A DNA stretch of 47,222 nt from Parafilimonas sp. (GTDB lineage: Bacteria; Bacteroidota; Bacteroidia; Chitinophagales; Chitinophagaceae). The notes beneath the pieces were generated by a model. It made no database searches, was not told where the DNA came from, and worked only from the letters and a program-made list of their open reading frames with translations. Position numbers and translations under genes: made by a program. The stretch lies in NCBI GenBank assembly GCA_019247895.1, contig JAFBAF010000065.1, forward strand, positions 1 to 47,222, written 5' to 3'. Of the stretch, positions 1,494-28,425 are shown piece after piece. Positions within the stretch are counted from its first letter, which is position 1; the number at the start of each line of letters is the position of its first letter.

Positions 1494-1500
1494 AAATAAA

Positions 1501-9442: not shown

Positions 9443-9553
9443 CAGCACAATGTCAATTACTCACTTATATATTTGCAGCTTAAAAATTACCAGTAGTCTT
9501 TCCAAAATCAGTGCTATTATAATCTGAAAAATTCACTACTTAAAAACCATTTG

Positions 9554-10375
9554 ATGAAGATCAATTTCCGTGCTTTCTTATTATTATTCATAATCCCAGG
9601 TTTCGTAACATGTTTCACATCCTGTAATACTTATAAAAATGTTGCCTATTTTCAGGATTTTGCGGATACTGCAAAGCCTGTTCTCGTCAAAACCGTTCCC
9701 TTTTCTTCACCCGTTATACAAACAGACGACATACTATCTGTTACCATACAAACCATAGATAATGATGTTACTAATATGCTTAATAGTAACAGCAGCTTAA
9801 ATAACTCAACTACTGCAATGCCTGTTGTGGGTAGCAGCAGTGCCAGTACGCCACAAGGCATAAACGGTTATTTGGTTGATAAAGATGGGAACATTGAAGT
9901 GCCCTTTGTAGGCAAAGTACATGTTGCAGGATTAACAACGGCTGAAGCAAAAAATCTGATCTCCGGTGAAGTAAATAAATACTTTAATGATGCAATCGTA
10001 AATGTGCGGTACGCAAATTTTAAAATCACTGTTATTGGTGAAGTTTTAAAGCCTTCAACATATGTTATACCTAATGAAAAGATAAACATTTTTGATGCAT
10101 TGGCTTTGGCAGGAGATATGACAATCTATGGACAGAGAGAAAATGTTCTTTTGGTTCGCGATACATTAAATGATAAAAGGCTCGTTAGGCTTAATCTTAA
10201 TAACAAAGATATAATTAGCTCTCCCTATTTCTATCTGCAATCAAATGATATTGTATATGTGCAGCCGAATAAGCAAAAAGTAGCTGCAACCGATGCTTAT
10301 CGTAATCGCCTGTTTGCACTTGTTGCTGCCGTGCTTACTGTGGTGATTGTATCAGTTAATAAACTTGGTAAATAA
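9554..10375 (+). CDS. Wza-like polysaccharide export outer-membrane lipoprotein
   Basis: Lipobox-like GFVTCFTSCNTYKNVAYFQD; poly_export/SLBB-like GYLVDKDGNIEVPFVGKVHVAGLTTAEAKNLISGEVNKYF...VTVIGEVLKPSTYVIPNEKINIFDALALAGDMTIYGQRENVLLVR. ORF track begins at TTG 9551; ATG at 9554. Confidence 0.9.
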   Translation: MKINFRAFLLLFIIPGFVTCFTSCNTYKNVAYFQDFADTAKPVLVKTVPFSSPVIQTDDILSVTIQTIDNDVTNMLNSNSSLNNSTTAMPVVGSSSASTPQGINGYLVDKDGNIEVPFVGKVHVAGLTTAEAKNLISGEVNKYFNDAIVNVRYANFKITVIGEVLKPSTYVIPNEKINIFDALALAGDMTIYGQRENVLLVRDTLNDKRLVRLNLNNKDIISSPYFYLQSNDIVYVQPNKQKVAATDAYRNRLFALVAAVLTVVIVSVNKLGK

Positions 10376-10396: not shown

Positions 10397-12808
10397 ATGG
10401 ATAATAGTAATAATACAAACGGAGTAAGACCTTTAAAAAAAGACGAAGAATTTGACATAAAAAAAATTCTGCATAAATTTTTAGTGCAGTGGAAATTTTA
10501 TGTGGCAAGTTTGATAGTTATTGCATTTCTGACATTCATGTTTATCAGGTATTCAACACCTTTATATAAAGTGCATGCGCAGGTTTTAATTGAAGATAAC
10601 AGCAGTAAAGGCGGTTCTTCATCGTCATCATCATCTTTCGCCCAAACAAATATGCTTCAAGATTTCAGCGGTCTGTTTGATCTTCAAAATAATGTTTATA
10701 ACGAAATGTCAATCCTGCAATCAATAGACTTGCTGGAAAAAACAATTAATAACCTGCATTTAAACATTGCATATTATAAGAAAGGTGATATCAGGGATAT
10801 AGAAATGTTTAATAAAAGCCCGTTCAGAGTTGATTTCACCCCAACTTCAGATTCAATACTTTTAACTGAATTTGAACTGAGTTTTCCAGACAGTGGTCGT
10901 TCAGCAAAATATTCAATAAAAACAGCAGACAATTCCTTTAAGGCTACTGCGAATTTTGATGATACAATTCAGTCGCCTGTTGGCAAAATTTGCCTTGTTC
11001 GTACCGGGTTCCCGTTTACTGATAATGTTTACAGCTTTACGGTAACTTCCGTTGCTGCAACTATTGCAGACATTCAAAAAAATATGGTTATTTCTATTCC
11101 TGATGATCAAACCACTGTTATCCAGGTAGATTATAATACTAATGTGCCAAGAAAGGGAGAATCTGTGGTGGGACAATTGATTAATGAATACCTGAAAAGA
11201 AACCTGACCGAAAAAAATGAAATATCAGACAGTACAATTGCATTCATTAATAGCCGGATAGGATTGGTTTCAGGTGATCTTTCAGGTATTGAAACCGATA
11301 TAGAGCATTTTAAACAACAAAATAATTTAGCCGATATCAATGCGCAGTCTCAACTGCTCGTTCAAAATAGCTCCGTTTACTATCAAAAATTGAATGAGGC
11401 GGAAGTGCAGCTGAATGTTGTTAAAACAATGCTTGATTACTTGGCTGATGAAAAAAATACAAACAGACCGGTTCCTGCCTTGCTGACGGCAGACCCAACT
11501 TTCCTTGCCTTAATGCAGCAATATAACTCACTTGTATTGCAACGCGAGAGGCTGGCGCTGACAGTAAAGGAAAATAATCCAATTGCTTCTAATATCAATA
11601 CCCAAATTAAAAATGTTAGAAGCGATTTGGTGAAGAGTTTGCAAAGCCAGCAAAAAGCCTTGCAGATAAGTGAGAACAAACTGGCAGAACAAAACAAACA
11701 GGCAGCGGGTGCCATACAAAATGTTCCTGTTCAAGAAAGACAATATGTTGATTTATCAAGAGAGAAAGATATTAAACAGGCTTTGTATTTATACTTGCTT
11801 CAGAAAAAAGAGGAAACCGCAATTACACGTGCCTCTAACCTGCCAAATGCAAGTATAATAGAGGTACCAAGATCAGAATATCTCCCTTACTTCCCAAACA
11901 AATTACTTATCTGCTCTGCAGCAATTTTGCTTGCATTTATTTTGCCAACAGGTTGGATTATTGTAAAGCAATTGCTTTCTAATAAGATTGTTAACAGGGA
12001 AGATATTACTAACCAAACAACAGTGCCTATAATAGCGGAAATTGGCCATTATGATAAAGAAGGCGTGCTCAACATGCAAGAGGGCACCCGCACACCGGTT
12101 GCAGAACAGTTTAGGGTTTTTCGTACCAATATGGATTTTATTGTAAAACAAAAAACCTGCCCTGTTATATTAATAACTTCAACGATTTCAGGTGAAGGAA
12201 AATCTTTTATCAGTTCGGGCTTAGCTGCAGTTTATGCATATAGCGGCAAAAAAATACTGTTGATGGAAATGGATCTTCGCAAACCGAAACTTTCATCAAT
12301 GTTAGGCGTTTCAAATGAAACAGGCTTTACTTCCTATATTATCGGTAACAGGCCTGCAATGGAATATATAAAACCACTTAAAGGATTACCAAACGTTTTT
12401 CTTTTAAGCTCAGGATTAATACCGCCAAATCCTCCGGAATTAATGATGACTGAAAGAATGGATGATTTCTTTACTGAAGTTAAGGATCAATTCGATACTA
12501 TTATTATGGATACTGCACCAATTGGTGCAGTTACCGATGCACAAATCCTCGCAAAGTATTCTGATGTGAATTTGTATGTAATGCGCCAGGAGTACAGTTT
12601 TAAAAATAGCGTGGAATTTTTAAATGAACTTTTGGAAGCAGACAGGATAAGCAAAATGTATCTTGTTGTGAATGACGTTAAAAAGAGTACGAGCTACAGA
12701 TACGGTTACGGATATGGTTATGGCTATGGTTATGGGTATGTGGATAATGGTAAAAAGGGATTATTTGCGAAGAAGTCTAAATCGAGAAAAAGACAACCAG
12801 TGCGGTAA
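10397..12808 (+). CDS. Wzc-like polysaccharide chain-length determinant / bacterial tyrosine autokinase fusion
   Basis: Wzz-type N-terminal domain with TM helix; long coiled-coil; kinase Walker A STISGEGKSFISSGLA, Walker A' ILLMEMDLRKPKL, Walker B FDTIIMDTAPIG; tyrosine-rich tail SYRYGYGYGYGYGYGYV. Confidence 0.95.
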   Translation: MDNSNNTNGVRPLKKDEEFDIKKILHKFLVQWKFYVASLIVIAFLTFMFIRYSTPLYKVHAQVLIEDNSSKGGSSSSSSSFAQTNMLQDFSGLFDLQNNVYNEMSILQSIDLLEKTINNLHLNIAYYKKGDIRDIEMFNKSPFRVDFTPTSDSILLTEFELSFPDSGRSAKYSIKTADNSFKATANFDDTIQSPVGKICLVRTGFPFTDNVYSFTVTSVAATIADIQKNMVISIPDDQTTVIQVDYNTNVPRKGESVVGQLINEYLKRNLTEKNEISDSTIAFINSRIGLVSGDLSGIETDIEHFKQQNNLADINAQSQLLVQNSSVYYQKLNEAEVQLNVVKTMLDYLADEKNTNRPVPALLTADPTFLALMQQYNSLVLQRERLALTVKENNPIASNINTQIKNVRSDLVKSLQSQQKALQISENKLAEQNKQAAGAIQNVPVQERQYVDLSREKDIKQALYLYLLQKKEETAITRASNLPNASIIEVPRSEYLPYFPNKLLICSAAILLAFILPTGWIIVKQLLSNKIVNREDITNQTTVPIIAEIGHYDKEGVLNMQEGTRTPVAEQFRVFRTNMDFIVKQKTCPVILITSTISGEGKSFISSGLAAVYAYSGKKILLMEMDLRKPKLSSMLGVSNETGFTSYIIGNRPAMEYIKPLKGLPNVFLLSSGLIPPNPPELMMTERMDDFFTEVKDQFDTIIMDTAPIGAVTDAQILAKYSDVNLYVMRQEYSFKNSVEFLNELLEADRISKMYLVVNDVKKSTSYRYGYGYGYGYGYGYVDNGKKGLFAKKSKSRKRQPVR

Positions 12809-12844: not shown

Positions 12845-14254
12845 ATGCCTAAGGGTTTAAAAAATTGTTTGAAAGCGGCTTTTTACATGCTTATGTCTTT
12901 TTTGCCATTAAGCTGGATTTCCATTACACACGTTTCAAGCAATGTGAAATATGATGACTCTAATTTTAAACTTTTCCATTTATCACTTGTGCCATTATTA
13001 ATGGCATGTTTATATAGTTCTTACAGACTTAAGGTTGCGGCATTTGTAAAAAAATACAGGCTTTTAATTGGCAGTTTTCTTCTATTAATGATTATGAATT
13101 TTATATCTACCGGTGTAAATGAAACCGTTTCGCCGCTGGCTGCCATGTATATAGTGAAAAACCTTATCTACTTTACTTTTTTTATTCTTTTTGCAGGAAT
13201 GTGCTTAATGCTGTTTGAATTAGATGAAAAAATCAAAATTATAAGTAGCGGCGCGTTTTTATCTGTTTGTGTATTTATAGTGGTTACAACCTTTACTTAT
13301 AAAGATGGAATCTATATAGTTGAGCTGGTTAAAAATTTTGCTACCGGAAATATAATGGGATTACGTTATGGATTGTTTAAAAACCTATACAATGGCGGAG
13401 CACTTGAAAGGGATTCTGATTTTGCAACTGCATTAATAAATACTATAACCGGCTCCTTCATTTTTGCCCATTTCCTTGCACTTTACGCATACTATAATTC
13501 ACCTTCGCGTTTTTATAAAATCTTAAATATTATTACACTTATATTTTCATTCTTCTTTGTTATTTCAAGTATAAGCAGGTCCAATATCATAGCAATTGTA
13601 TTTGGATATTTTTGTTATTGGGGCCTTGAAATAGTGTTCAATAAAAACATGAAAATTGTTTTTTCGTTGTTGGGCGGATTTATAGTATTAACCTTGATAA
13701 CTATTTTAATATTGTCAAGCAGCGGAGCGCAGCAGGCTCTTTCCGGTACTTCGGCTATGTACCAGCAAAGATTTGGTGATTTAGATGAGAATGTAAGATG
13801 GCAAATGAACAGCCAGGCATTACAAATCGTTTTTTCAAATCCTAAATCTCTGTTTTTCGGGTTAGGCTCAGGAGCCTTGTTATATAGCAATCAATATTCT
13901 TTTATATCTAATGATAAATCTATCCATAACTTTATAATAGGCTCCACTTACCAGGCGGGCATTTTTGGTTTGGTATTAAGTTGCATGTTTTATTTTACAC
14001 AGCTATTTTGTTTAATAAAATATGCACCCATCTTGTCAAGGTATAAAAAGGTTTTTGTTATTACCGGTGTAATGTCTGTACCGTTAATCCGGCAAATGGA
14101 ATCAGGAAATAGCGGTTCACTCACATTGCAGGAATGGTTTTGCCTGGCATTCTTTTTAGGGTTTGTTTTAAGTACGTTAAACATTTCATCTGAAAAGCGC
14201 TCTATCAGGTTAACCAGTAATGGTTTTGTTGCTAAAAGTTTGCTGCAAACTTAG
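12845..14254 (+). CDS. Wzy-like polysaccharide polymerase / O-antigen ligase family membrane protein
   Basis: Polytopic membrane protein; large central loop followed by RWQMNSQALQIVFSNPKSLFFGLGSGALLY...SIHNFIIGSTYQAGIFGLVLS, typical of the Wzy_C/O-antigen ligase fold; sits directly after the Wzc-like gene. Confidence 0.75.
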   Translation: MPKGLKNCLKAAFYMLMSFLPLSWISITHVSSNVKYDDSNFKLFHLSLVPLLMACLYSSYRLKVAAFVKKYRLLIGSFLLLMIMNFISTGVNETVSPLAAMYIVKNLIYFTFFILFAGMCLMLFELDEKIKIISSGAFLSVCVFIVVTTFTYKDGIYIVELVKNFATGNIMGLRYGLFKNLYNGGALERDSDFATALINTITGSFIFAHFLALYAYYNSPSRFYKILNIITLIFSFFFVISSISRSNIIAIVFGYFCYWGLEIVFNKNMKIVFSLLGGFIVLTLITILILSSSGAQQALSGTSAMYQQRFGDLDENVRWQMNSQALQIVFSNPKSLFFGLGSGALLYSNQYSFISNDKSIHNFIIGSTYQAGIFGLVLSCMFYFTQLFCLIKYAPILSRYKKVFVITGVMSVPLIRQMESGNSGSLTLQEWFCLAFFLGFVLSTLNISSEKRSIRLTSNGFVAKSLLQT

Positions 14255-14306
14255 TTATGGCAAAAATGGGAATTGTATTTGCAATAGATGTTTAAATTTT
14301 TTAAGT

Positions 14307-16172
14307 ATGCTTTCAAAAAGCAGTTTTGTTTTTATTTCAGTTTTACTGTCATTTATCGAATGTGGTAACGATACAACCAGGCAATTTTCTGGCAGCAATT
14401 CAAAAGGTTCTTCATTCAAAGTTACAGAATCAGGATTCGTAAGCTTTTTAGAAAATTTTAAAGGTTCATCTGCCGTAAATATTAATAATAGCCCGCGAGG
14501 CGGGAATTTTAAATTAGTTAGTGATAATAAATTGCAAGACGATTATGGAATAACATTTCCTGCAACTGCTAAAGGCAGTAATTGGCACTGGGTTAGGCAA
14601 TATGAAAATGATGAACCTGTAAATATTAAATGGTTTGGAGCTAAAGGTATAGGATTAGCAGGTTACAAGGATGATAGCGCGGCCATAGTAAAGGCCGTAC
14701 ATTCCCTCGAATCAAAAGGTGGCGGCAAATTATATTTTCCTGCAACAAAATCTTTTTATGGATTTAACGGCGATGGTATTTTATTACCGGATAATATAGA
14801 AATATATGGTGATGGCCCGCAATCGGTGATCACACATGTAAATCCTGAAAATGCAGACTATTATAAAGGGGTAATATTTTATACTACAACTTATGGCCCT
14901 GTTGATGCCCAAAGCATTTTCCAGGAACCAATGTTTGAAATAGAAGATGCCAAAAAAGGCGACAATTTTATTGTTTTAAAAACAAAGCCTGATTCATTAA
15001 AATTAAACGATGGAAAACTTATCGGTTTAGGAGGCGGTTTATTTAATAAAAGAGGCCAGTCGAACAAATCACGATTTACACAATTTGAAATAAATGAAAT
15101 TACAAAAGTTGACGGGAATAAGGTGTACCTCAAATATCCGCTTTCTGTGCCTTTGAAAACAATGACAAATAAATCACAGGAAACCGGTAATGCCACTTCG
15201 GTTCCCGTATTGGTAGATATAAACGGAAACCATTCTTTCAATAAAAAATTAAATGCATACGATAGAATCTCAAAGAACATTTATATACATGACCTGACAC
15301 TTGCGCAGGAAGATCACAATTCAATTGCAAATACTCCTTACAACAGCGAAAAGGCTCCTTCAAGTATAATTGGATTGGGCGGCACATTTGAAAGTAAATT
15401 TCAAAATCTTACGCTTGAAGGTTATAATAGCTTTCTTGGTAATCTCTGGAACAGGTGCGACATATCAAATCTTAAAATTTATGCCGTAAGAAAATTTACG
15501 GATTTTGGCTATGGTTCGGCCAATACCAAAATGCATGATATAACCTGGGTTTACAAAGCAAGTAAAATAAGAGAAACAGTGGCTAAGGCTATTGAACCCG
15601 GTGAAAGAAATAAAGATATACAAAGCTTTATTTACATTAATGATGGTACACACGATATAGAAATATATAATGTTAAGGCTTCAGGTAATTGGGATGGTGA
15701 AAATATTTTTCAAATTGCAGGTGGTGCACACCACATCAATATTCATGATGTAGAAATTAATTTACCACAGTTTAATAATGTAAAGGGCGAGGCAGTGAAT
15801 ATAAGAGATGACAATGCAGTTACGTTCTCTCACGATATAAACTTTAAGAACGTAACATTAACATTAGGGAATATTAAGCAATTCGTAACCATAAGAGGAA
15901 CCAACCAGGTGGTTGATGATAAACTTATTCAGTTTGATAATGTAAGTTTTAATGGAAGGCCTTTAAACAAAAATTCGGTTAACATCGCTAATTCTACAGG
16001 TGTTATATTGAATAAAGTATCTGTTTCTAATGGCAATATTTTACTTGATAATTCGGCAGACGCCAAAATAACTAACCTAAATGCGCCAAATTCTGATATT
16101 ATTGATCAAAATAACAGAGGGAAAAAATCTGAAGTTATTGCTTCCAAATACAGGGCTATGCGGAAAATGTAA
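14307..16172 (+). CDS. right-handed beta-helix lipoprotein (pectate lyase superfamily/GH28-related), possible EPS lyase or epimerase
   Basis: NIKWFGAKGIGLAGYKDDSAAIVKAVHSLESKGGGKLYFPATKSFYGFNGDGILLPDNIEIYGDG is a classic pectate-lyase-superfamily N-terminus; C-terminal repeating beta-helix turns. Internal ATG 14307 gives MLSKSSFVFISVLLSFIECGN (signal/lipobox); ORF track starts at 14220. Confidence 0.75.
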   Translation: MLSKSSFVFISVLLSFIECGNDTTRQFSGSNSKGSSFKVTESGFVSFLENFKGSSAVNINNSPRGGNFKLVSDNKLQDDYGITFPATAKGSNWHWVRQYENDEPVNIKWFGAKGIGLAGYKDDSAAIVKAVHSLESKGGGKLYFPATKSFYGFNGDGILLPDNIEIYGDGPQSVITHVNPENADYYKGVIFYTTTYGPVDAQSIFQEPMFEIEDAKKGDNFIVLKTKPDSLKLNDGKLIGLGGGLFNKRGQSNKSRFTQFEINEITKVDGNKVYLKYPLSVPLKTMTNKSQETGNATSVPVLVDINGNHSFNKKLNAYDRISKNIYIHDLTLAQEDHNSIANTPYNSEKAPSSIIGLGGTFESKFQNLTLEGYNSFLGNLWNRCDISNLKIYAVRKFTDFGYGSANTKMHDITWVYKASKIRETVAKAIEPGERNKDIQSFIYINDGTHDIEIYNVKASGNWDGENIFQIAGGAHHINIHDVEINLPQFNNVKGEAVNIRDDNAVTFSHDINFKNVTLTLGNIKQFVTIRGTNQVVDDKLIQFDNVSFNGRPLNKNSVNIANSTGVILNKVSVSNGNILLDNSADAKITNLNAPNSDIIDQNNRGKKSEVIASKYRAMRKM

Positions 16173-16219: not shown

Positions 16220-16993
16220 ATGTTTATAAGTGACAAGTTGATTTATCTTGCTTTACACAAGACTGGCTGTACTCATGTGCTTAAACTTTTAACTTCAACA
16301 CCAGAATTAAATGGCAAAATAATCGGTAAGCATAACACTATATACGATGTTACAAAACAAGATTTGGGCGATCTTAATTCTAAAATAAAAGCAGGCAATA
16401 TCCGAAATCCGTGGGATTGGTATGTATCGCTTTGGGCATTTGGCAGTATGGGTAAAGGTGGTTTGTATGATCAGATTGTAAAGAAAAGTTTTTATCGGAA
16501 ACTAAATTACCCTGTTTCTTTTTTTACACCGGTTGAAGAATGGAAGCACGCTTATTCAAATGCAGAAGATCCCCAGCTTTTTAAAAAGTGGCTTAAGCTG
16601 CTGCTTGTTTCAAGAAGAAAAGATTTGATCGGTTATGGCCAAGGCCGCGCCGGAAGCATAATGGGATTGCTTACTTACAGGTATCTCGGGCTTTATTCAT
16701 ATAATTTTAAAAAACAAAGAAAAGTAATCAGCTCTTATCAGGAAGTATTTGAATTTGATAAACAAAATAATTTTCTTGATTTCTACATTAGAAATGAAAA
16801 TCTTGAAAGCGATTTTAGTTTGCTAATGAACAAACTGGGAATCGAAACCGGGTTTGCGCAACAAATTTCAAACATTCCTAAAACCAATAGTTCTGTTCGA
16901 AAAAATTATAAGGAATATTACGATCAAGAATTAATGGAACTGGTTAATGAAAAGGAAAGATTAATAATAGAAAAGCATAACTATAAATTTTAA
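16220..16993 (+). CDS. sulfotransferase family protein
   Basis: 5'-PSB-like YLALHKTGCTHVLKLL at the N-terminus; 3'-PB-like GNIRNPWDWYVSLWAF. Confidence 0.7.
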   Translation: MFISDKLIYLALHKTGCTHVLKLLTSTPELNGKIIGKHNTIYDVTKQDLGDLNSKIKAGNIRNPWDWYVSLWAFGSMGKGGLYDQIVKKSFYRKLNYPVSFFTPVEEWKHAYSNAEDPQLFKKWLKLLLVSRRKDLIGYGQGRAGSIMGLLTYRYLGLYSYNFKKQRKVISSYQEVFEFDKQNNFLDFYIRNENLESDFSLLMNKLGIETGFAQQISNIPKTNSSVRKNYKEYYDQELMELVNEKERLIIEKHNYKF

Positions 16994-17031
16994 ATGGCGC
17001 AAATATAATTTGCACTTCATCAATAAACTTA

Positions 17032-18351
17032 ATGGCAGCATTCATTTCAAAATTCAAAAAGCTAAGCAAGAAAGAAGAAAACAAGGAACTGATAAAACAT
17101 TCATTTGCCGCATTAATCGCGAGGATTGGTGGCGCCATTGCAGCATTTTTGATGAACCTGGTTGTTGCAAGATATTTAGGAGCAAGCGAGGCGGGTTATT
17201 TTTTTTTAGCAGTTACAATTACAACGTTGATTTCAACAATCGGCCGCATTGGCGCAGACCAAACTATACTCAGGTTTGTAGGTATTTACAGCTCCGCGTC
17301 TGATTGGAATAAGGTGCATGGTGTTTTACGCAAAATTATAAACTGGTCTAACTTAACAACTATTCCGTTAACTGCAATTATCTGCGTTTTTTCTAAACAA
17401 ATTTCTGTATATATTTTTCATAAAGAAGAACTTCAATGGCCGTTGTTTTGGACATCATTATCTATTCCCTTTTTTACCCTGTATAATATATATGGCATGG
17501 CATTGCAGGGAAGAAAAAAAGTTTTACTATCGGTAACCGGCTTAAAGGTTTTAACGCCCGTATTTCTTATCATACTCATTTTAATATTTGCATTTAATGA
17601 TGGAAAATGGGCATCTATAGGTTATACAATTGCCTGTTTTATCAACTTGATTTTTGCTTATTACTGGTGGAGAAAAAAGCTTCCACCTGAATCTGCAAGA
17701 GAAGCAATAGATTCTTCTGCCTTGTGGAAAAGTTGTGGGCCCTTATGGATCGTAGCTATTATGAACGTAATAACTACCTGGGGCGGCCAATTTATAGCAG
17801 GCATTTTTAATAACTCAAAGGAACTGGCACAACTTGCTGTAACCAGAAACACCACTATACTTGTTTCTTTTGTGCTTACCGCTGTAAATAATGTGAGTGC
17901 CCCCAGATTTGCAGTAATGTATAGCGAAGGGAAAATGAATCAATTAAAAAATTACGCAAGAAATACAACCTTATTAATGACGTTAGTTGCTCTACCTATC
18001 ACACTTTTTTTATGGTTTTTCCCCGAATTTATTTTATCCTTTTTTGGAAAGGATTTTAAAGATGGCGCATGGCTTTTAAGAATTTTTTCTATTGGCCAAT
18101 TTGTAAGTGTGATTAGCGGGTCTGTTGGATATTTATTAAACATGACCGGCCATGAAAAAGATATGCGAAATGTAATGGTAATTAATGCAGCACTTTCAAT
18201 AGTGCTGGCGCTGATTTTAAATCCCATCTATGGAATTATAGGATCAGCCTTAGCATCGGCTATAAGTATTGCAAGTACAAATCTTATGGCAGTTGGGTAC
18301 GTAAAAAAGCGATTAGGGTTTAGTACAATAAGCATCTTTGGTTTTAAATAA
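17032..18351 (+). CDS. oligosaccharide flippase (Wzx-like, MATE/MOP superfamily)
   Basis: LIKHSFAALIARIGGAIAAFLMNLVVARYLGASEAGYFFLAVTITTLISTIGRIGADQTILRFV; polytopic ~12 TM; C-terminal polysaccharide-synthesis-type repeats. Confidence 0.9.
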   Translation: MAAFISKFKKLSKKEENKELIKHSFAALIARIGGAIAAFLMNLVVARYLGASEAGYFFLAVTITTLISTIGRIGADQTILRFVGIYSSASDWNKVHGVLRKIINWSNLTTIPLTAIICVFSKQISVYIFHKEELQWPLFWTSLSIPFFTLYNIYGMALQGRKKVLLSVTGLKVLTPVFLIILILIFAFNDGKWASIGYTIACFINLIFAYYWWRKKLPPESAREAIDSSALWKSCGPLWIVAIMNVITTWGGQFIAGIFNNSKELAQLAVTRNTTILVSFVLTAVNNVSAPRFAVMYSEGKMNQLKNYARNTTLLMTLVALPITLFLWFFPEFILSFFGKDFKDGAWLLRIFSIGQFVSVISGSVGYLLNMTGHEKDMRNVMVINAALSIVLALILNPIYGIIGSALASAISIASTNLMAVGYVKKRLGFSTISIFGFK

Positions 18352-18510
18352 CTGCATATTATTTATTTCACTTTGATGCTTACCTCATTTGTAACAGAAC
18401 GTTTGAATATGGCAGAAATTAGTTTTGATTTGCAACTTTATTACATAAAATGCAGGCTTTATATGTATTTGTTCCAAAAGTTTTAAATGCGTAATCCTGC
18501 TTAAATTTTC

Positions 18511-19398
18511 ATGGTGAAAAGTTTTATTAAAAATACACAAAGACGGTTTCAGAATAAGGTCCAGAAAGAAGGTTCAGTATGGTTAAAGCCTTACCTTTTT
18601 CTGCTTGCCTTTTTACGGCCTGTATATTTCAATAAAGAATTTTTGTTGTTAAACGGATTAAGGCGAGAACCGAAATCCGGGCAGCAAAGTTTTATTTTTT
18701 TTACAGTACATAAAAGCGCATCAACATTCATTAAAAATACCATCATAAAACTCATTGGGCCAAGCCATATTACCGCTGTAGAGTTAAGTGGTTATCTAAG
18801 CAGGAAAAGGCAGGAAAAATATTATAACAATCCCGCTTTTATGAAAAAAGTATTATATAAAACAGGATACTTTTTTGGTGCTTTTCGTGCTTTTTATCCT
18901 TTTCCGGATTTGGATAAGTTTAAAATACTCCTGGTTTTGAGGGACCCGAGAGATGTGTTAACCTCTTTTTACTTTTCAACATTATACAATCATCCTTTAA
19001 GTACAAAAACTGTTTACGAAGAACGCAAAAAATATGAAACATATACAATCGACGAGTATGTATTGGAAACAGCGCCGGCGATGCAAAAAAAATATGCGGC
19101 TTATTGTAAAAATCTTTTAAATAGAAGTAATGTTCTTTTTTTAAAGTATGAGGATATGATAAGTGATTTCAGCAACTGGTTGCATACATTAAATTCTTTT
19201 CTTGAACTAAAAGATAATGAAGAGCAATTGCAGGAAATAATTGCAGCAACAACATTTAAAGTTGATAAAGAAGATCCAAAATCTTTTATTCGCAATATAA
19301 AGTCAGGTGACCATTTGAATAAATTAAAAACCGAAACCATTAATAAGCTAAACGAACTATTTTTTAATGAACTAAAAATGTTAGGATATAAAATATAA
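18511..19398 (+). CDS. sulfotransferase domain protein
   Basis: 5'-PSB-like FIFFTVHKSASTFIKNTI; 3'-PB-like KILLVLRDPRDVLTSFYFS; VLFLKYEDMISDF. Confidence 0.85.
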   Translation: MVKSFIKNTQRRFQNKVQKEGSVWLKPYLFLLAFLRPVYFNKEFLLLNGLRREPKSGQQSFIFFTVHKSASTFIKNTIIKLIGPSHITAVELSGYLSRKRQEKYYNNPAFMKKVLYKTGYFFGAFRAFYPFPDLDKFKILLVLRDPRDVLTSFYFSTLYNHPLSTKTVYEERKKYETYTIDEYVLETAPAMQKKYAAYCKNLLNRSNVLFLKYEDMISDFSNWLHTLNSFLELKDNEEQLQEIIAATTFKVDKEDPKSFIRNIKSGDHLNKLKTETINKLNELFFNELKMLGYKI

Positions 19399-19411
19399 AT
19401 AAGAAGCTGCA

Positions 19412-20314
19412 ATGGAGCCGAAAATTGACTTAGTAATTGCTGGTGCCCAAAAAGCAGGCACTACATCTCTGAATAAATATCTTGCGCAACATCCGAATAT
19501 ATACACACACTTTACGCAGGAATTTGGCATGTTTGCCAGTAATGAAGATTTTGATAAAGGATTACAAAAAAACATCCGGGAAAATGTAGAAAAACAATTG
19601 TTAATACAACCTGGTAAAAACGTATTTATTGCAAAGAGAGTAGGTGTGATGTATAACAAAGAAATGATGCAAAAGATTTATCAATCTTATTCTGATTGCA
19701 AAATGGTAGTGATTTTAAGAAACCCTGTTGACAGAGCTTTTTCTGCATTCAACTATTGCAGAATGGCAGGCATGGAGCCTTATAAGAAATTTGAAGACGC
19801 ACTTTATATAAACGATCCGGCAAGGTTCACCAATCCGAATTTTAAAAGAAACTGCGATTATATTTATCGAAGCAATTATCTTGCCCCTCTTCAAAATATG
19901 CAACTTATTTTCCCTGCAGAAAATATTAAGGTGTATATATTTGAAGAAATCGTAAAAAACTTAAAAGCGCCTCTAAATGAAATGGTGGATTCTCTTAACT
20001 TACCGCCTTTCGAATTTGATACGAAGAAGAATTATAATGAAGGAAGTGCATCGAGGTTTGATACAGTTTCAAAATTAACAGCGCCGGGAAACTTTAATAT
20101 TTTAAAAAAAGTTTTTACTGTACAGCAACGGGTAAAAATGAAAGAGTATTTAAAAAAATTAAATTCAAAAAAGAATGCTTCTGCAAAAGAAACGTTATCT
20201 GAAAATACCCGTAAATATTTAGTTGGTATATTTCGTCAAGAAGTACAGGAACTTGAACAATTTTTAAAGCTTCCGGTTAAAAGATACTGGCCTGAATTTT
20301 TTACTACATCATGA
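19412..20314 (+). CDS. sulfotransferase
   Basis: Canonical IDLVIAGAQKAGTTSLNKYLAQHPNIY and KMVVILRNPVDRAFSAFNY. Confidence 0.95.
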   Translation: MEPKIDLVIAGAQKAGTTSLNKYLAQHPNIYTHFTQEFGMFASNEDFDKGLQKNIRENVEKQLLIQPGKNVFIAKRVGVMYNKEMMQKIYQSYSDCKMVVILRNPVDRAFSAFNYCRMAGMEPYKKFEDALYINDPARFTNPNFKRNCDYIYRSNYLAPLQNMQLIFPAENIKVYIFEEIVKNLKAPLNEMVDSLNLPPFEFDTKKNYNEGSASRFDTVSKLTAPGNFNILKKVFTVQQRVKMKEYLKKLNSKKNASAKETLSENTRKYLVGIFRQEVQELEQFLKLPVKRYWPEFFTTS

Positions 20315-21015
20315 GCAATTATTTTTTTAATTTAAAATATAAGGTTGCTAACAAGGTATCCAACTATCCGGGCTTATATAAAATGATAAGTAAGGGTTTA
20401 ACCGGCCGTGATTGTTATACAACAAAAGATAGTGATATAGTTATTGACGGGCATCCGCGATCTGCAAATACTTATGCCACCTATGCTTTTAAAATCGCCC
20501 AAACCAAAGATTTAATAATTGCCAATCATATACATAAAAAATCGCAGTTTTTAACTGCAGAAAAGTACGGTATACCTGCAATTTTACTTATAAGAGAACC
20601 GATGGATTGTATTGCTTCAATGCTTATTCGTCAGCCAAAATACGATCCAACGGTATTGTTTGATGGTTACTATTTTTTGTACAACGGATTAAAAGACTCC
20701 AATGCGTTTGTTGTGGGCGAATTTAATGAAGTAATAAATAATTACGCTGAAGTTATTAAGCGTGTAAATAAAAGGTTTGACAAAAATTTTGATCTGTATT
20801 ACAAAACAGAAGAAAATGAAAAACTGGTAAAACATATAGTGCAAACACAGGATGAATTAAAAGGCGCCAGCGATTATGATCAAAGGGTTGCTTATCCAAA
20901 CGAAACAAGAAAAAAGGTAATGAATGATGTGAAAAAAAGGCTTCAGCAGGAAATATATAAAACTGACTACAGTAAATGTAAAAAGATATATGATCACTTC
21001 ATGAACAAACAATAA
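20311..21015 (+). CDS. sulfotransferase domain protein
   Basis: IVIDGHPRSANTYATYAF (5'-PSB-like) and AILLIREPMDCIASML (3'-PB-like); start overlaps previous stop (ATGA). Confidence 0.8.
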   Translation: MSNYFFNLKYKVANKVSNYPGLYKMISKGLTGRDCYTTKDSDIVIDGHPRSANTYATYAFKIAQTKDLIIANHIHKKSQFLTAEKYGIPAILLIREPMDCIASMLIRQPKYDPTVLFDGYYFLYNGLKDSNAFVVGEFNEVINNYAEVIKRVNKRFDKNFDLYYKTEENEKLVKHIVQTQDELKGASDYDQRVAYPNETRKKVMNDVKKRLQQEIYKTDYSKCKKIYDHFMNKQ

Positions 21016-21042
21016 GGTTTAACAGATCTGCAAAAACTGATA

Positions 21043-22185
21043 ATGAAAAGCTCAAGAAAAATATTTATAAATACGTTACCTACAATTCAAACTTCTGGCG
21101 GCATACTTACATTTTTATTGGAATTATTATATGCGCTGGCTGATAACAACAACTCTCAACTGAATTACTGTCTCATTTGCTCCGAGATAAATGAACATCT
21201 TTTCATACCTTTTAAAAAATACAGCAATTTTTCAGTTAAAGTAGTAAAGGTTGATAACAGCAATCCGATAAAACGTATTTTTTATGAGCAATTTGTTCTG
21301 CCCAAATTTTTAAATACCCAAAAAAATGCGGTGGTTTTAAATATTTGTAATGTAGCCATGCTGCGGTGCAAAATTCCACAGATAACAATTATACAGGCGC
21401 AATTAAGTATTGCCAAATTAAGGAAAACCTTGCCTAAAGATGTTGTTTGCATAACTACTTTGCATAAAATTTATTATGATACATTCTTAGAAAGATCGAT
21501 TCGAAAATCAACAAAAACAATTGCTATTTCAAATTACATGGTTCAGTTTCTTAAAAAATATGAGGATAAACTGGCTGTTATACATGAAGGGGTGAATTTT
21601 AACTTTTTTGCAAATCCTGATAAAAATATAAAACAAAATTCAAGGCCATATATTCTCTCCTTAAGCACTTTATTCCCGCATAAAAATATGAACAGGGTTA
21701 TTGAAGCCTTCAGCATATTTATTAAAAGCACAAACCTTGATTTTGATTTGCTTATTGTGGGAAAAGATCCTGATGGCAGGCAAATGCCAAAGCTAAAAGA
21801 ACTTGCCGAAAAGCTTGGTATAGCCAACAGGGTTATATTTAAAGGATGGATAGCTACCGATGAAATACCGGGTATTTACGCTAATGCAACAATATTTCTT
21901 TATTTATCAAGTATGGAATTTTTCGGATTGCCTGTTTTGGAGGCTATGGCTGCTGAAGTGCCTGTAATTGCAGCTAACAAAATGTCAATACCGGAAGTAG
22001 TGAATAATGCCGGCATTTTAGTGGAACCGGATGATGTAGAAAATGTATCAAGACATATTGAGCATATTGTAAAAAATGAACAGTATAAAAAAAACCTCGT
22101 TGCGGCGGGCAGGGAAAATATTAAAAATTTTGATTGGCATTTCACTGCTAAAAAATTTGAAACATTGTTTTTAAACGCTAACTAA
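21043..22185 (+). CDS. glycosyltransferase family 4
   Basis: TSGGILTFLLELLYAL N-terminus; LSTLFPHKNMNRVIEAFSIF; DLLIVGKDPDGR; SSMEFFGLPVLEAMAAEVPVIAANKMSIPEVVNNAGILVEPDD. Confidence 0.95.
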   Translation: MKSSRKIFINTLPTIQTSGGILTFLLELLYALADNNNSQLNYCLICSEINEHLFIPFKKYSNFSVKVVKVDNSNPIKRIFYEQFVLPKFLNTQKNAVVLNICNVAMLRCKIPQITIIQAQLSIAKLRKTLPKDVVCITTLHKIYYDTFLERSIRKSTKTIAISNYMVQFLKKYEDKLAVIHEGVNFNFFANPDKNIKQNSRPYILSLSTLFPHKNMNRVIEAFSIFIKSTNLDFDLLIVGKDPDGRQMPKLKELAEKLGIANRVIFKGWIATDEIPGIYANATIFLYLSSMEFFGLPVLEAMAAEVPVIAANKMSIPEVVNNAGILVEPDDVENVSRHIEHIVKNEQYKKNLVAAGRENIKNFDWHFTAKKFETLFLNAN

Positions 22186-22195
22186 GTATTGATGT

Positions 22196-22927
22196 ATGGT
22201 TATTTCTGACGAGCATAAGTATGTGTTTATAGAAATGATTCGCACCGGCTCAACTGCTATTAGTGCTGAACTATGTGAGTACTACGGCGGAAGAAAAATA
22301 TTGAATAAGCATTCATATTACCATGAATTTTTAAAAATTGCTAATAAAGAACAAAAAGAATATTTTGTTTTTGTAGGGTGCCGAAACCCGCTGGATATGG
22401 CTGTAAGCGGATACATAAAATACAAGAGCGATCACCTTGGCCGGTATTCTGATCCTAAGCAATGGAGGAGGAATGGAGGAACGATAACGGATAAAAATCT
22501 GAAGATTTATAATGACATCCAGAAAAATAATTTAAGTTTTAACCAGTACCTGAAAAAGTATTACAGGTTGCCGTACAGCAATACATCGGTTATAAATAAT
22601 GAAGACGCGGATTTTGTAATCCGGTTTGAAAATATACAGGAGGATTTTAAAAAAGTATTGGGTTTGCTTAATCTAAAACAAATACGTGACATACCTATTA
22701 AAAATAAAACCGCAGCAAAAGATAATTTTTTAAGTTATTATACAAAAGATATTCAGCCTTATGCATTATTTATTTTTGGGCCTATAATGAAAAAATTTGG
22801 ATACGGGTTTCCTGCAGATTGGCCAAAGCAAAAATTTGAGTTTATATCCAATACTATTTTTGAGTTATATACGATTGCCAAAAAAATTTACTGGCGAAGC
22901 ACAAAAAGTAATTCAATGCCAGATTAA
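22196..22927 (+). CDS. sulfotransferase family 2-like protein
   Basis: YVFIEMIRTGSTAISAELCEYYGG...KHSYYHEF; 3'-PB-like FVFVGCRNPLDMAVSGYIKYKSD; later DFVIRFENIQEDF. Confidence 0.8.
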   Translation: MVISDEHKYVFIEMIRTGSTAISAELCEYYGGRKILNKHSYYHEFLKIANKEQKEYFVFVGCRNPLDMAVSGYIKYKSDHLGRYSDPKQWRRNGGTITDKNLKIYNDIQKNNLSFNQYLKKYYRLPYSNTSVINNEDADFVIRFENIQEDFKKVLGLLNLKQIRDIPIKNKTAAKDNFLSYYTKDIQPYALFIFGPIMKKFGYGFPADWPKQKFEFISNTIFELYTIAKKIYWRSTKSNSMPD

Positions 22928-22966
22928 GCAATCATCTAATATATTGCACATGTATATTTGCTGAAC

Positions 22967-23710
22967 ATGGAACACCGCGATACACTTAAAATTCTTGGGA
23001 TTGATTTTATAAATACGTCAACGCAGCAGGTAGTTAACATTTTAAAGAATGGTGGCCTTTTGGTTGTTCCGGCGGCACCTGCACTTATCAATATAAAAAA
23101 AGACCCTGCTTATTACAGCGCTTTGCAAACTGCGGATGTTGTAATACCCGATAGCGGTTACATGGCCTTATTATGGAATTTTTTTCATCACAATAAAATT
23201 AAAAGAATATCAGGCCTTGAATTTCTTAACAGTTTTTTCAAAGATGAAGATGTAAAAAAAACTTCAGCTTTATTTTTAGTCGATCCCAGGCCAACTGAAG
23301 CGCAGCATAACCTGAATTATTTAAAAAAATCAGGCTTTAAAATAGCTGATGATATGTCTTACCTGGCGCCAATGTATAAGAAAGATAAAGTAGAGGATCC
23401 CGAATTATTAAACATCATCGAACAGAAAAAACCGAAATATGTAATTATAAATTTAGGCGGTGGTACGCAGGAAAAATTAGGGGCGTATTTAAAAAATAAT
23501 TTAAGTTATAAACCAGCTATCATTTGTACAGGAGCAGCTATCGCATTTTTAACAGGCCAACAGGCAAGCATACCCACATGGGGAGATAAACTATTTTTAG
23601 GCTGGTTATTCCGGTGCATCCAAAATCCGAAATTGTATGTACCACGATATTTTAAAGCTTTTCAATTAGCAATATTTATGTTTCGTTACGGACAGCAGCA
23701 GCCTCTTTAA
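22967..23710 (+). CDS. WecG/TagA/CpsF family glycosyltransferase
   Basis: ILGIDFINTSTQQVVNIL...PALINIKKDPAYYSALQTADVVIPDSGYMALLWNF...RISGLEFL...IINLGGGTQEKLGAYLKNNLSYKPAIICTGAAIAFLTGQ. ATG 22967 preferred over TTG 22958. Confidence 0.9.
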   Translation: MEHRDTLKILGIDFINTSTQQVVNILKNGGLLVVPAAPALINIKKDPAYYSALQTADVVIPDSGYMALLWNFFHHNKIKRISGLEFLNSFFKDEDVKKTSALFLVDPRPTEAQHNLNYLKKSGFKIADDMSYLAPMYKKDKVEDPELLNIIEQKKPKYVIINLGGGTQEKLGAYLKNNLSYKPAIICTGAAIAFLTGQQASIPTWGDKLFLGWLFRCIQNPKLYVPRYFKAFQLAIFMFRYGQQQPL

Positions 23711-23753: not shown

Positions 23754-24752
23754 ATGCAGAAAAAAGCTCTCGTTTGTGGTGCCGGTGGTTTTATTGGCGG
23801 GCACCTGGTTAACCGGTTGAAATCGGAAGGTTATTGGGTTCGCGGAGTTGATTTAAAAGAAAATGAATATGGCAACGGCAATTCAGATGAATTTATAGTT
23901 GGTGATTTGCGCGATCCGAAATTAGTTGAGGAAGTTGTTTCAGAGGATTTGGAGGAGATTTACCAGTTGGCTGCAGATATGGGCGGCGCGGGTTTTGTTT
24001 TCACAGGCGAAAATGATGCAGCCATCATGCACAACAGCGCCTTAATAAATTTGAATGTGTTGGAGGAAGCAAAAAATAAAGGCATTAAAAAAATATTTTA
24101 TTCTTCATCTGCCTGCATGTATCCGGAATATAACCAGCTTGATCCTGACAATCCGAAATGTTCTGAGGATTCTGCTTATCCTGCAGCGCCGGATAGTGAA
24201 TATGGCTGGGAAAAATTATTTAGCGAAAGATTGTATTTAACCTATCACCGTAATCATGGGCTTGAGGTGCGTGTGGCAAGGTTTCATAACATTTTTGGCC
24301 CGCAGGGAACCTGGGAAGGCGGCCGCGAAAAAGCACCTGCCGCAGTTTGCAGAAAAGTAGCATTAGCACCAGAAGGTGGCGTAATAGAAATTTGGGGTGA
24401 TGGTAAGCAAACACGTTCATTTCTTATCGTTCACGAATGTGTTGAGGGTATAAGAAGATTAATGGAAAGCGATTTTATCGGCCCGGTAAATATTGGCTCA
24501 GAAGAAATGATTTCGATAAATGACTTTGCGAAAATGGTAACAAATATTTCAGGCAAAAATCTTTCAGTAAAAAATATAAAAGGGCCAACTGGTGTACGGG
24601 GAAGAAATTCTGATAACGCACTTATAAAAGAAAAATTAGGTTGGGCACCTTCGCAACCTTTAAAAGTTGGTGTTGAAGAAACATATAATTGGATAGTTGA
24701 ACAAATAGCAAAAAAGCAAAAGCTTGAGTCAAAAACTTTGTCAATCGCTTAG
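23754..24752 (+). CDS. NAD-dependent epimerase/dehydratase, GDP-mannose 3,5-epimerase-like
   Basis: Rossmann GAGGFIGGHLVNRL; AADMGGAGFVFTGENDAAIMHNSALINLNVLEEA; SSSACMYPEYNQLDP; SEYGWEKLFSERLY (YxxxK); HNIFGPQGTWEGGREKAPAAVCRKVA. Closely resembles plant-type GME. Confidence 0.85.
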   Translation: MQKKALVCGAGGFIGGHLVNRLKSEGYWVRGVDLKENEYGNGNSDEFIVGDLRDPKLVEEVVSEDLEEIYQLAADMGGAGFVFTGENDAAIMHNSALINLNVLEEAKNKGIKKIFYSSSACMYPEYNQLDPDNPKCSEDSAYPAAPDSEYGWEKLFSERLYLTYHRNHGLEVRVARFHNIFGPQGTWEGGREKAPAAVCRKVALAPEGGVIEIWGDGKQTRSFLIVHECVEGIRRLMESDFIGPVNIGSEEMISINDFAKMVTNISGKNLSVKNIKGPTGVRGRNSDNALIKEKLGWAPSQPLKVGVEETYNWIVEQIAKKQKLESKTLSIA

Positions 24753-25071: not shown

Positions 25072-25172
25072 TTTTACATGCTGATTTCTTGCTTAAAGAA
25101 ACTTCAAAACTTGTTGTATCATTTCGTCAAAATATTTGTATTATTTTTACTTCAAGCAAATCATCCACTTTA

Positions 25173-26780
25173 ATGAGCTTTAAAAAATATGCCCATAAGC
25201 TGAACCTGCGTTTTTTATTTTGCTCTTTAATACTTCTTTTATTTATTATTCATTTGAATGCACAAGCCCCTGTATTAAATGTAACCAACAGCTATACACA
25301 ACAATCGGTTTTATATAACAGCGATACGTTTGCGCATACCGCCTGGAAACCTGTTGTATATACAAACTCAGCTTATCAAAAAGCTGATCGTTCATGGTTA
25401 CACCGTAAATTTTTTGAAGAACATTTATTGCAGGTGCAGCAACCGGGGTTTAATATTTTTGGCGACTTTGTATTTGATGAAGATGCAGGTGCAACAAAAC
25501 GTGCAGTGCCTACAATATCCTCTTCAAATCAAAACCACGATGGCACTACAAAATTTAATTACATTAATACAAGAGGTTATTTTTTTGGTGGCAATGTCGG
25601 CGATAAATTTTATTTCGAAACAGATTTTTACGAGAACCAGGCAAGCTTCGCCGGTTATGTTGACAGCTTTATAAGAAAGACCGGCGTTATTCCGTTTCAA
25701 AACAGTTATAAAAATTTAAAAGCAAAAGGTTTTGATTACAGCTACTCAACCGCAAAATTGGTTTATACTCCAAACAAATATTTGCTGTTCAATCTCGGTT
25801 ATGGAACAAATTTCATCGGCGACGGTTACCGCTCCTTGTTATTGAGTGATTACAATACGCCTTATCCGTATTTCCGCACTTCAATAAATATTGGAAGTGT
25901 GCAGTACTCGGTAATGTATTCACAATATATATCGAATGAAAACTCTTTTACATATGCAGAAGGCTATCCAAGAAAATGGGGGCAAACATATTTGGTCGAT
26001 TGGCATGCAACCAAAAATTTTAATATCGGGATTTTTGATGCTGTTGTTTCTTCAATTGAAAATGTTGATCATGAGAAGGATTTTGGTGTAACACATTTTA
26101 GCCCGGTTATTTTTTTACATAGTTCCAAATCTCCATCAGGTTTAAAAAATAATGATGTGCTCGGATTGAATTTAAAATATACAATCATTCCGGCAGTTGA
26201 TTTTTATGCACAAGTGATGTTGGATAATTCAGGCAGTGAAGATTGGGAAAAACGCTATGGTTACCAGATCGGTATTCGGGCAGGTAATTTATTTAAAATA
26301 GATGGATTAAACGCACAAGCGGAATTTAACACAGTAAGGCCTTACAGTTATGCTTCAGATACTATAACAACTGTTTATGCGCATGATGGACAATCGCTGG
26401 CGCATCCGCTTGGCGCAAATTTTAAAGAAGGTGTTTTTGTTGCAGATTATAGTTATAAAAGATGGTGGTTTAGAGCAGAAGCAATGGCAGCAAGATATGG
26501 CAATGATTCATCATCTGCTGCAGAAAACTTTGGTCGTGATATTTTTAAGCCATTATATACACACAGTAAAACAAATAATGTTTCAACAGACCAGGGTTTA
26601 CTTACAAAATTGTATTACGGCGATATTAGAATTGCTTATATACTAAACAGGAAAACAAACATGCGGGTTGAAACCGGCGCTGTATTCAGAAGTGAAAAAA
26701 ACAAACTGGATAACTATAAGGACGTGCAATTTTATATTGGTATCAGAATGAGTTTCAGAAAACTGATTTATGATTTTTAA
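25173..26780 (+). CDS. Wzi-like capsule assembly outer-membrane beta-barrel protein (copy 1)
   Basis: Signal peptide from ATG 25173 (MSFKKYAHKLNLRFLFCSLILLLFIIHLNAQ); FNLGYGTNFIGDGYRSLLLSDYNTPYPYFRTS; C-terminal strand ending IRMSFRKLIYDF. Confidence 0.8.
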   Translation: MSFKKYAHKLNLRFLFCSLILLLFIIHLNAQAPVLNVTNSYTQQSVLYNSDTFAHTAWKPVVYTNSAYQKADRSWLHRKFFEEHLLQVQQPGFNIFGDFVFDEDAGATKRAVPTISSSNQNHDGTTKFNYINTRGYFFGGNVGDKFYFETDFYENQASFAGYVDSFIRKTGVIPFQNSYKNLKAKGFDYSYSTAKLVYTPNKYLLFNLGYGTNFIGDGYRSLLLSDYNTPYPYFRTSINIGSVQYSVMYSQYISNENSFTYAEGYPRKWGQTYLVDWHATKNFNIGIFDAVVSSIENVDHEKDFGVTHFSPVIFLHSSKSPSGLKNNDVLGLNLKYTIIPAVDFYAQVMLDNSGSEDWEKRYGYQIGIRAGNLFKIDGLNAQAEFNTVRPYSYASDTITTVYAHDGQSLAHPLGANFKEGVFVADYSYKRWWFRAEAMAARYGNDSSSAAENFGRDIFKPLYTHSKTNNVSTDQGLLTKLYYGDIRIAYILNRKTNMRVETGAVFRSEKNKLDNYKDVQFYIGIRMSFRKLIYDF

Positions 26781-28425
26781 AATCAAAAATTTGAAGAATA
26801 ATAAGTATATAAAATTATCTTTTTTAGCTGCGTTTGTATTTGCTACAAGCCTTGTTCATGCACAACAAATTCCTTTAAACCAGGTAGTGCAAAACAGGTT
26901 TAGTGAAATGTTGTTGAATGCAGATTCATCTGTGTTTACAGGCTTCAGAGCACAGAACTGGCTTGAGTTGGAGCAATTAAACATTCTGCATAAAACCGAA
27001 TTGCAGGATAGTGTTTTTGGTTTAAGCAATTCTTTAAACAGTAATATAACCCACACCAATTTTATTAGAGGCATTGGAAGAAATAGCGTGTTTACACTTG
27101 ATCCATATGTTGATGCCGCAGTTGGAAAATCGAATGATAAAAGCGATGTGCTTACAAATTTTTCTGCAGGTATAAATATGCAGGCGCAATTCAATGAAAA
27201 ATTTTCTTTTAATCTTGGTGTAACTACCAACGTTAATCAATACCCGAAATATTTAGACAGCGCTATTTTTTCTAAATATGATCGTTTCAATATTGCTTCA
27301 AACAAATACATTATTCCCGGCGAAAATGCAGGCACGCTGCATAACAATAACAGGTTCACGTATACAAATTTCAATTTTAATTTAACTTATACACCGAGTA
27401 AATATTTTTTAATTGCAGCAGGCTACGGGAAAAATTTTTTAGGCGATGGATACAGAAGTTTATTGTTGAGTGATAACAGCAATAATTATCCTTATTTGCG
27501 TTTGCAGGCAAGATTATGGAAGCTAACGTATAATGTTTTATATAATCGTTACACCAATAATTTTTGGTATGAAGTAAACGGAGCTGCGCAGCCAAAATAC
27601 AGCACGATTCATTATCTCGGTTTTAATACAAAAAAGTTCCAGGTTGGTTTGTTTGATGAAGTAACGTGGCTTGCAAAAGATACCAATTTTACAAGAGGCT
27701 TCGATGTTCAATATTTAAATCCTTTGATCTTTACAAGACCATTAGAGTTTACAGTTGGCTCGCCTGATAATGCAATGATTGGTTTCAATCTTAAATACAA
27801 AATTTATAAAAAAGGATTCGTTTATGGCCAGCTTGCATTGGATGATTTAAATCTTAAAACATCGAAAGAACATCATTCGCAGTTTTATGGAAATAAATAT
27901 GCATTACAGTTAGGCGTTTGGAATAATGATATTTTCGGTGTGAAAAATTTATCGTGGCGGCTTGAATGGAATGGTGTTCGTCCATATACTTATGGCCATG
28001 GTGTGGGCGGAAATATTAGCTTGAACTATACCAATTATTATCAATCGCTCACAGATCCTTTCGGTGCGAACTTTAATGAGTTCATATCGGTATTTGATTA
28101 TTCAAACAATCGCTGGTATGCAGTGCTTGAAAATTTATATACAATACGCGGCGAAAATCCCGGTGTTGCATATAACAATGGGGAAGATTTGTGGGGCGGT
28201 GAAAATAATATTCCGCAGTTTGGCGTAAAAACAATGCAGGGAATAAAAACAAAATATTCTTATAACCAGTTAACATTAGGCTATCTTATTAATCCTTCAA
28301 ACCGTTTAGGTATTGAAGCTAACGCAGCTTACCGCAGCAGGAAATCTTCTGCTGTGAATGAATCTGAATTTTATTTCAGCTTTGGTATAAAAACAAGTCT
28401 TTACAATTTATACCACGATTTTTAA
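26770..28425 (+). CDS. Wzi-like capsule assembly outer-membrane beta-barrel protein (copy 2)
   Basis: Signal peptide ...FVFATSLVHAQQ; AAGYGKNFLGDGYRSLLLSDNSNNYPYLRLQ; ends FGIKTSLYNLYHDF. Paralogous to the preceding gene. Confidence 0.8.
   Translation: MIFKIKNLKNNKYIKLSFLAAFVFATSLVHAQQIPLNQVVQNRFSEMLLNADSSVFTGFRAQNWLELEQLNILHKTELQDSVFGLSNSLNSNITHTNFIRGIGRNSVFTLDPYVDAAVGKSNDKSDVLTNFSAGINMQAQFNEKFSFNLGVTTNVNQYPKYLDSAIFSKYDRFNIASNKYIIPGENAGTLHNNNRFTYTNFNFNLTYTPSKYFLIAAGYGKNFLGDGYRSLLLSDNSNNYPYLRLQARLWKLTYNVLYNRYTNNFWYEVNGAAQPKYSTIHYLGFNTKKFQVGLFDEVTWLAKDTNFTRGFDVQYLNPLIFTRPLEFTVGSPDNAMIGFNLKYKIYKKGFVYGQLALDDLNLKTSKEHHSQFYGNKYALQLGVWNNDIFGVKNLSWRLEWNGVRPYTYGHGVGGNISLNYTNYYQSLTDPFGANFNEFISVFDYSNNRWYAVLENLYTIRGENPGVAYNNGEDLWGGENNIPQFGVKTMQGIKTKYSYNQLTLGYLINPSNRLGIEANAAYRSRKSSAVNESEFYFSFGIKTSLYNLYHDF

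Follow-up and report, generated by a model that had tools for sequence, protein, structure and literature searches.

Gene clusters for sulfated exopolysaccharides (EPS) are already known from bacteria, including those for synechan and for the polysaccharide of Vibrio sp. KMM 8419. Here, we investigated an EPS locus rich in sulfotransferases in a 47,222-nucleotide stretch of Parafilimonas sp. (contig JAFBAF010000065.1; the whole stretch is called the window), which corresponds to contig C281 in a metagenome-assembled genome of 3.76 Mb with 6% contamination. In 2021, sulfated polysaccharides were described as made, among bacteria, exclusively by cyanobacteria; the xss cluster for synechan in Synechocystis PCC 6803 pairs two sulfotransferases with eight glycosyltransferases, and sulfate was shown in its product (PMC8205485). 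Like xss, the Parafilimonas locus encodes Wzx/Wzy EPS synthesis together with sulfotransferases from distinct subfamilies. It differs in having five sulfotransferases to about three glycosyltransferases in the core operon and in belonging to the Bacteroidota, as genes such as that with the Por secretion tail domain also suggest, rather than to a cyanobacterium, and the xss regulators were not seen in it.

The sulfated capsular polysaccharide of Vibrio sp. KMM 8419 has a structure solved by nuclear magnetic resonance, and sulfotransferase content varies between strains (PMC11641403). It shares with our locus this variability and the occurrence of sulfotransferases together with genes for 3'-phosphoadenosine 5'-phosphosulfate (PAPS), but its three sulfotransferases are scattered across a locus of 80 genes, which is of the ABC-transporter type and includes its own cysCND. 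Pontiella is likewise reported to combine a bacterial sulfated, glycosaminoglycan (GAG)-like exopolymer with putative sulfotransferases, but the polymer is described as mainly N-sulfated and the cited cluster has a single sulfotransferase (PMC7356697). A plasmid of Pseudosulfitobacter pseudonitzschiae H46 (NZ_CP054603.1, 46-56 kb) carries five annotated sulfotransferases in about 10 kb, also among EPS genes and including one relative of our ST2 (32%). Unlike the Parafilimonas locus, it is alphaproteobacterial, mostly of the Sulfotransfer_2 type, and has an insertion sequence element.

We conclude that the window very probably contains an operon for exopolysaccharide (or capsule) of the Wzx/Wzy type, with five distinct PAPS-dependent sulfotransferases that act in the cytoplasm and add sulfate to the repeat unit. 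Few bacterial polysaccharide sulfotransferases have been characterised; this locus offers five candidates in one operon, in a host far from cyanobacteria, and would allow each enzyme to be matched experimentally to the position that it sulfates. Computation gave us the gene identities and motifs, a fold prediction for ST4, the genes of the PAPS pathway, the context of the operon and the conservation of the cassette.

The five sulfotransferase genes

The five open reading frames (ORFs) were given the working names ST1 to ST5 in window order. They are listed with their 5'-phosphosulfate-binding (5'-PSB) and 3'-phosphate-binding (3'-PB) motifs.

16220-16993, + strand: ST1, putative divergent Sulfotransfer_2/Gal3ST-like sulfotransferase (PHROG 3347, relatives passing PF03567, profile A2); HKTGCT and RNPWDWYVS
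18511-19398, + strand: ST2, Sulfotransfer_1 sulfotransferase (PF00685, E 2.7e-18); HKSAST and RDPRDVLTS
19412-20314, + strand: ST3, Sulfotransfer_1, distantly like heparan-sulfate 3-O-sulfotransferases (PF00685, E 1.6e-10); QKAGTT and RNPVDRAFS
20311-21015, + strand: ST4, from a widespread family with the PAPS-sulfotransferase fold that neither Pfam nor NCBIfam models (motifs, predicted fold, context); PRSANT and REPMDCIAS
22196-22927, + strand: ST5, Sulfotransfer_2-like sulfotransferase (PF03567, E 4.4e-6, 27.4 bits, cut-off 22); IRTGST and RNPLDMAVS

All five run from ATG to stop at exactly the coordinates given in the initial annotation, and every motif quoted there is present. Each protein has a 5'-PSB loop with a basic residue and Ser/Thr following the first strand, and the Arg-Ser spacing of the 3'-PB motif, which spans a strand and a helix, is eight residues in all five. 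Among the 33 window ORFs of at least 150 amino acids, exactly ST1 to ST5 carry the motif pair, against 0 of 66,000 composition-shuffled copies; the pattern was built to fit these five proteins, so the scan measures rarity and is not a blind discovery. Pairwise alignment found a single detectably similar pair, ST1 and ST5 (27.5% identity, z 7.8), with z of at most 2.0 for all others. The five are indeed not close copies, as had been proposed, and these scores led us to reject recent duplication of one sulfotransferase gene. The genes lie close together on the + strand, with a 13-bp gap between ST2 and ST3 and a 4-bp overlap of ST3 and ST4, which fits a single operon.

ST2, ST3 and ST5 pass their Pfam cut-offs, and ST1 and ST4 themselves matched no curated Pfam or NCBIfam model. 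ST1 matches PHROG 3347, Galactose-3-O-sulfotransferase (E 1.8e-6), and several relatives that align with it pass PF03567 Sulfotransfer_2 (L044, E 6.5e-18; L148, E 4.4e-12; L153). Profile A2, built for the ST1/ST5 group, matches solved sulfotransferases in the correct register, and the 3'-PB residues R62 and S70 are invariant across the ST1/ST5 alignment set. ST1 is therefore best explained as a divergent Sulfotransfer_2/Gal3ST-like protein, reached through intermediates. The best solved relative of ST3 is PDB 3rnl (E 3e-16), an entry titled simply "Sulfotransferase"; ST3 also matches heparan-sulfate 3-O-sulfotransferase 5 (HS3ST5; E 1.3e-9), with a conserved Glu aligned. This Glu aligns with the residue that we take for the catalytic base in the heparan enzymes. 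Heparan sulfotransferases use a catalytic Glu (PMC11625862).

ST4 belongs to a widespread family that standard models miss. In a scan of genomes, 226 relatives spread over many phyla were confirmed; one of 50 aligned members reaches Sulfotransfer_3 (E 0.0065), and these members gave no sensible NCBIfam match. Across 88 aligned sequences, R50, H75, R95 and S103 are invariant and the loop E/D-G-F/Y-P-R-S-A/G-N-T/S is conserved; the classical PSB lysine is an arginine in ST4. The AlphaFold2 model is confident (predicted local distance difference test, pLDDT, 93.9; predicted template modelling score 0.91) and places the PSB loop between strand 43-47 and helix 53-63. All of its top 50 PDB matches are PAPS sulfotransferases (best E 4.1e-4). 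In a survey of up to 6 kb on each side, a GT4 (glycosyltransferase family 4) or Wzx homolog lies near the family gene at 55 of 80 loci, compared with 0 of 15 unrelated control loci, which were mostly shorter. On a Sagittula plasmid, an ST4 homolog annotated "hypothetical protein" sits among EPS genes near an annotated family 2 sulfotransferase. In a PDB profile search, de novo helical proteins and hemagglutinin stems made up most of the matches; we read them as chance matches of the helical C-terminal half of ST4. Two StaL sulfotransferase entries appeared only at E 0.39. The assignment of ST4 therefore rests on motifs, predicted fold and context.

A single-protein scan of the viral collection found no match for ST4, whereas an alignment-based scan did. 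ST4-like genes are on viral-collection contigs L136-L142 and ST1-like genes on others (L144-L153); sulfotransferases of both kinds are possibly carried by phages.

All five ORFs are best explained as PAPS-dependent sulfotransferases, with catalysis presumed. The identity proposed for them in the initial annotation is supported by curated models, intermediates or fold. Of the two computable grounds for rejection given there, absence of a PAPS-binding fold from most of the five and absence of PAPS synthesis from the genome, neither came true; the structure models covered ST1 and ST4. Some observations weigh against our reading of the locus. The AlphaFold2 model of ST1 is poor (pLDDT 55), probably because a deep alignment is wanting, and its Foldseek matches are not significant. 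ST2 has no obvious conserved catalytic His, and the superposition of ST4 on known sulfotransferases is partial (TM about 0.4). Furthermore, the adenosine 5'-phosphosulfate (APS) kinase CysC is also found in congeners without sulfotransferases at this site; a strict link between CysC and the locus was rejected on this ground.

The surrounding operon and the PAPS supply

The genes around ST1 to ST5 are as follows.

8099-9442, + strand: polyprenyl-phosphate sugar phosphotransferase, chain initiation (PF02397, E 2.4e-66; TIGR03025 over cut-off)
9551-10375, + strand: Wza-like export protein (PF02563, E 3.5e-15)
10397-12808, + strand: Wzc-like co-polymerase/tyrosine autokinase (PF02706, PF13807; TIGR01007 over cut-off)
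12845-14254, + strand: Wzy-like polymerase (PF04932, E 4.8e-6, below cut-off; position, length and a 40% homolog in congener G537)
14220-16172, + strand: secreted protein of beta-helix type that might epimerise or depolymerise the EPS (probably starting near 14298)
17032-18351, + strand: Wzx flippase (PF01943, E 6e-16)
21043-22185, + strand: GT4 glycosyltransferase (PF00534, E 6.6e-36)
22958-23710, + strand: WecG/TagA/CpsF (GT26-type) glycosyltransferase (PF03808, E 1.9e-25)
23754-24752, + strand: NAD-dependent sugar epimerase/dehydratase (PF01370, E 1.3e-41; 88-92% in congeners)
25089-26780, + strand: Wzi-like protein of the outer membrane, the first in a tandem pair (PF14052, below cut-off at E 2.4e-5)
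26770-28425, + strand: second Wzi-like protein, anchor for locus comparison (about 33% to its neighbour; 69-78% in congeners)

The initiating transferase, Wzx, Wzy, Wzc and Wza occur together (Wzy only below the Pfam cut-off). The EPS cluster recognised initially is thus borne out as a Wzx/Wzy operon gene set, and the Wzx and GT4 genes do sit among the sulfotransferase genes. Three sugar transferases were recognised in the core operon, namely the initiating enzyme, GT4 and the WecG-type enzyme, fewer than the sulfotransferases there. A GT8 and a GT4 gene close to the left end of the window (603-2622) might also be part of the operon, so that the sulfotransferases equal or outnumber the glycosyltransferases. 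The beta-helix protein has no Pfam match; it weakly matches mannuronan C5-epimerase and also phage tail/tailspike families, and could epimerise or cut the EPS. It has homologs at the same position in G537 (47%) and beside an ST1 homolog in G101. The Wzi-like pair (25089-28425) is conserved in the genus, including at loci that lack the EPS genes.

PAPS synthesis in the same genome, which the initial annotation had proposed to look for, is represented on contig C156 by adjacent genes for Sat (ATP sulfurylase) and CysC (E 6.6e-69). Sat, the CysQ-type phosphatase and the UDP-sugar dehydrogenase described below were assigned by eye from sequence rather than by model. Three sulfotransferase-like genes (L023:8340-12656), two of them below the Pfam cut-off, are convergent with sat-cysC. 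At the congener sat-cysC loci, no sulfotransferase was seen in the short stretches compared. Of eight genomes of the genus that were searched, seven have a CysC match, and the one genome with no match is 67% complete. The identity of CysC, 78-91% in six congeners, indicates that it is not contamination. Contamination as the source of both the locus and the PAPS genes was rejected, since congeners hold the locus anchor as well as CysC. The sole strong CysH has CC...CxxC cysteines like those of APS reductases; cysteine synthesis therefore probably does not pass through PAPS, and PAPS in this genome is probably made for sulfation. On contig C29, a CysQ-type phosphatase lies beside a sulfotransferase, a GT4 gene and a UDP-sugar dehydrogenase.

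In total, the genome has 11 sulfotransferase-like genes: the five described here, one on C29, two on C235 and three on C156. The two on C235 (L025 in genome G000) directly follow MBOAT acyltransferase-like and AlgJ/DltD-like genes, a possible cluster for a second acylated, sulfated glycan.

The locus in congeners and in Ekhidna lutea

Congener G537 has the same locus with closely similar flanks (initiator, Wza and Wzc at 77-84%; WecG-type transferase, epimerase and Wzi at 81-92%). Its middle holds five sulfotransferases, with a clear ortholog for ST2 only (55%), and lower identities for Wzy (40%) and Wzx (55%). Congener G110 carries five other sulfotransferases at the same locus and has only an ST5 homolog (39%) in common with ours. 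The sulfotransferases of both congeners were verified by Pfam. No sulfotransferase genes were present in the site stretches compared for G008, G541 and G539, the last from a 66% complete genome. That the sulfotransferases may be the variable part of the locus is a lead from a small sample, in which Wzy and GT4 vary too. The three congeneric loci with their different sets are a natural experiment for tying enzyme to sulfation position.

A gene run in Ekhidna lutea (NZ_FZPD01000001.1, L157) begins with a UDP-sugar dehydrogenase, CysC, CysD, CysN, CysQ, an export protein, a Wzc-like protein, Wzy and Wzx, the cys genes being named from sequence. After Wzx come ST3-like (34%), ST2-like (41%) and ST4-like (35%) genes, GT4 (29%), an acyltransferase and a Sulfotransfer_2 protein (E 7e-14). 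The two clusters share adjacent Wzx, ST3-, ST2- and ST4-like genes and GT4, but that of Ekhidna has its own cysCDN and cysQ inside, lacks ST1 and has a different Sulfotransfer_2 gene. This run is the strongest sign that the cassette may work with PAPS on polysaccharide. As far as these tools show, the ST4 family, the ST2/ST3/ST4 cassette in two Bacteroidota and the congener turnover are new here.

A broader proposal, to which we give slightly less than even credence, is that within a single genus a capsule/EPS locus keeps its outer genes and replaces most of its five sulfotransferases, which would make these its variable "serotype" component. Bacteria would then diversify their surface through altered sulfation to at least the same extent as through changes in the sugar chain, and ST4 would found an unrecognised family of polysaccharide sulfotransferases.

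Proposed pathway and alternative explanations

In the pathway that we propose, Sat and CysC would produce PAPS, while the sugar phosphotransferase, the WecG-type transferase and GT4 would assemble a short lipid-linked repeat. ST1 to ST5 would each sulfate a different sugar or position, with PAPS as the sulfuryl donor, before flipping. Wzx would then flip the sulfated repeat unit, Wzy, Wzc and Wza would polymerise and export it, and CysQ would clear the by-product PAP (3'-phosphoadenosine 5'-phosphate). Catalytic activity, the EPS repeat as acceptor, one position per enzyme and sulfation before flipping are what we infer from the genes.

It is conceivable, though on balance unlikely, that all five are true sulfotransferases of which only some act on this EPS, the rest acting on lipids, small molecules or a different glycan of the surface. 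Sequence does not reveal the acceptor, six of the sulfotransferase-like genes lie elsewhere in the genome, and xssE, one of the two sulfotransferase genes of the synechan cluster, can be disrupted without substantial change in bloom formation or EPS accumulation (PMC8205485). However, all five genes belong to a single operon, where they lie between chain initiation and export, and in two congeners five sulfotransferases occupy the same place. Loss of sulfate transfer by ST1 and/or ST4, which would then be degenerate proteins of the same fold or use another nucleotide, seems improbable to us. The lack of a curated match for either protein and the arginine in the PSB loop of ST4 would fit such a loss, but R50, R95 and S103 are invariant in the 88 ST4 sequences and glycan genes are present at most ST4 loci checked.

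The initial annotation had likened the locus to eukaryotic glycosaminoglycan-style decoration, a comparison that our results do not support. A GAG-like polymer made by eukaryotic-type enzymes would accord with the match of ST3 to HS3ST5, the UDP-sugar dehydrogenase gene on C29 and the report of a sulfated GAG-like EPS from Pontiella (PMC7356697). Yet ST3 alone is detectably like the heparan enzymes, and its best solved match is a different protein; the relatives found of ST1, ST2, ST4 and ST5 come from bacteria or viruses, and other bacteria have related clusters with several sulfotransferases. No GAG polymerase (for a hexosamine/uronic-acid or galactose disaccharide backbone) was recognised in the scanned genes, nor were uronic-acid/hexosamine backbone genes in the cluster, which uses Wzx/Wzy. 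We consider such a polymer very improbable, and favour sulfation of a Wzx/Wzy-dependent repeat unit by the five enzymes.

Upstream of the operon, 4253-6580 encodes a Por-secretion-tail protein, whose relatives at the same locus in congener G541 include a protein of 4871 amino acids.

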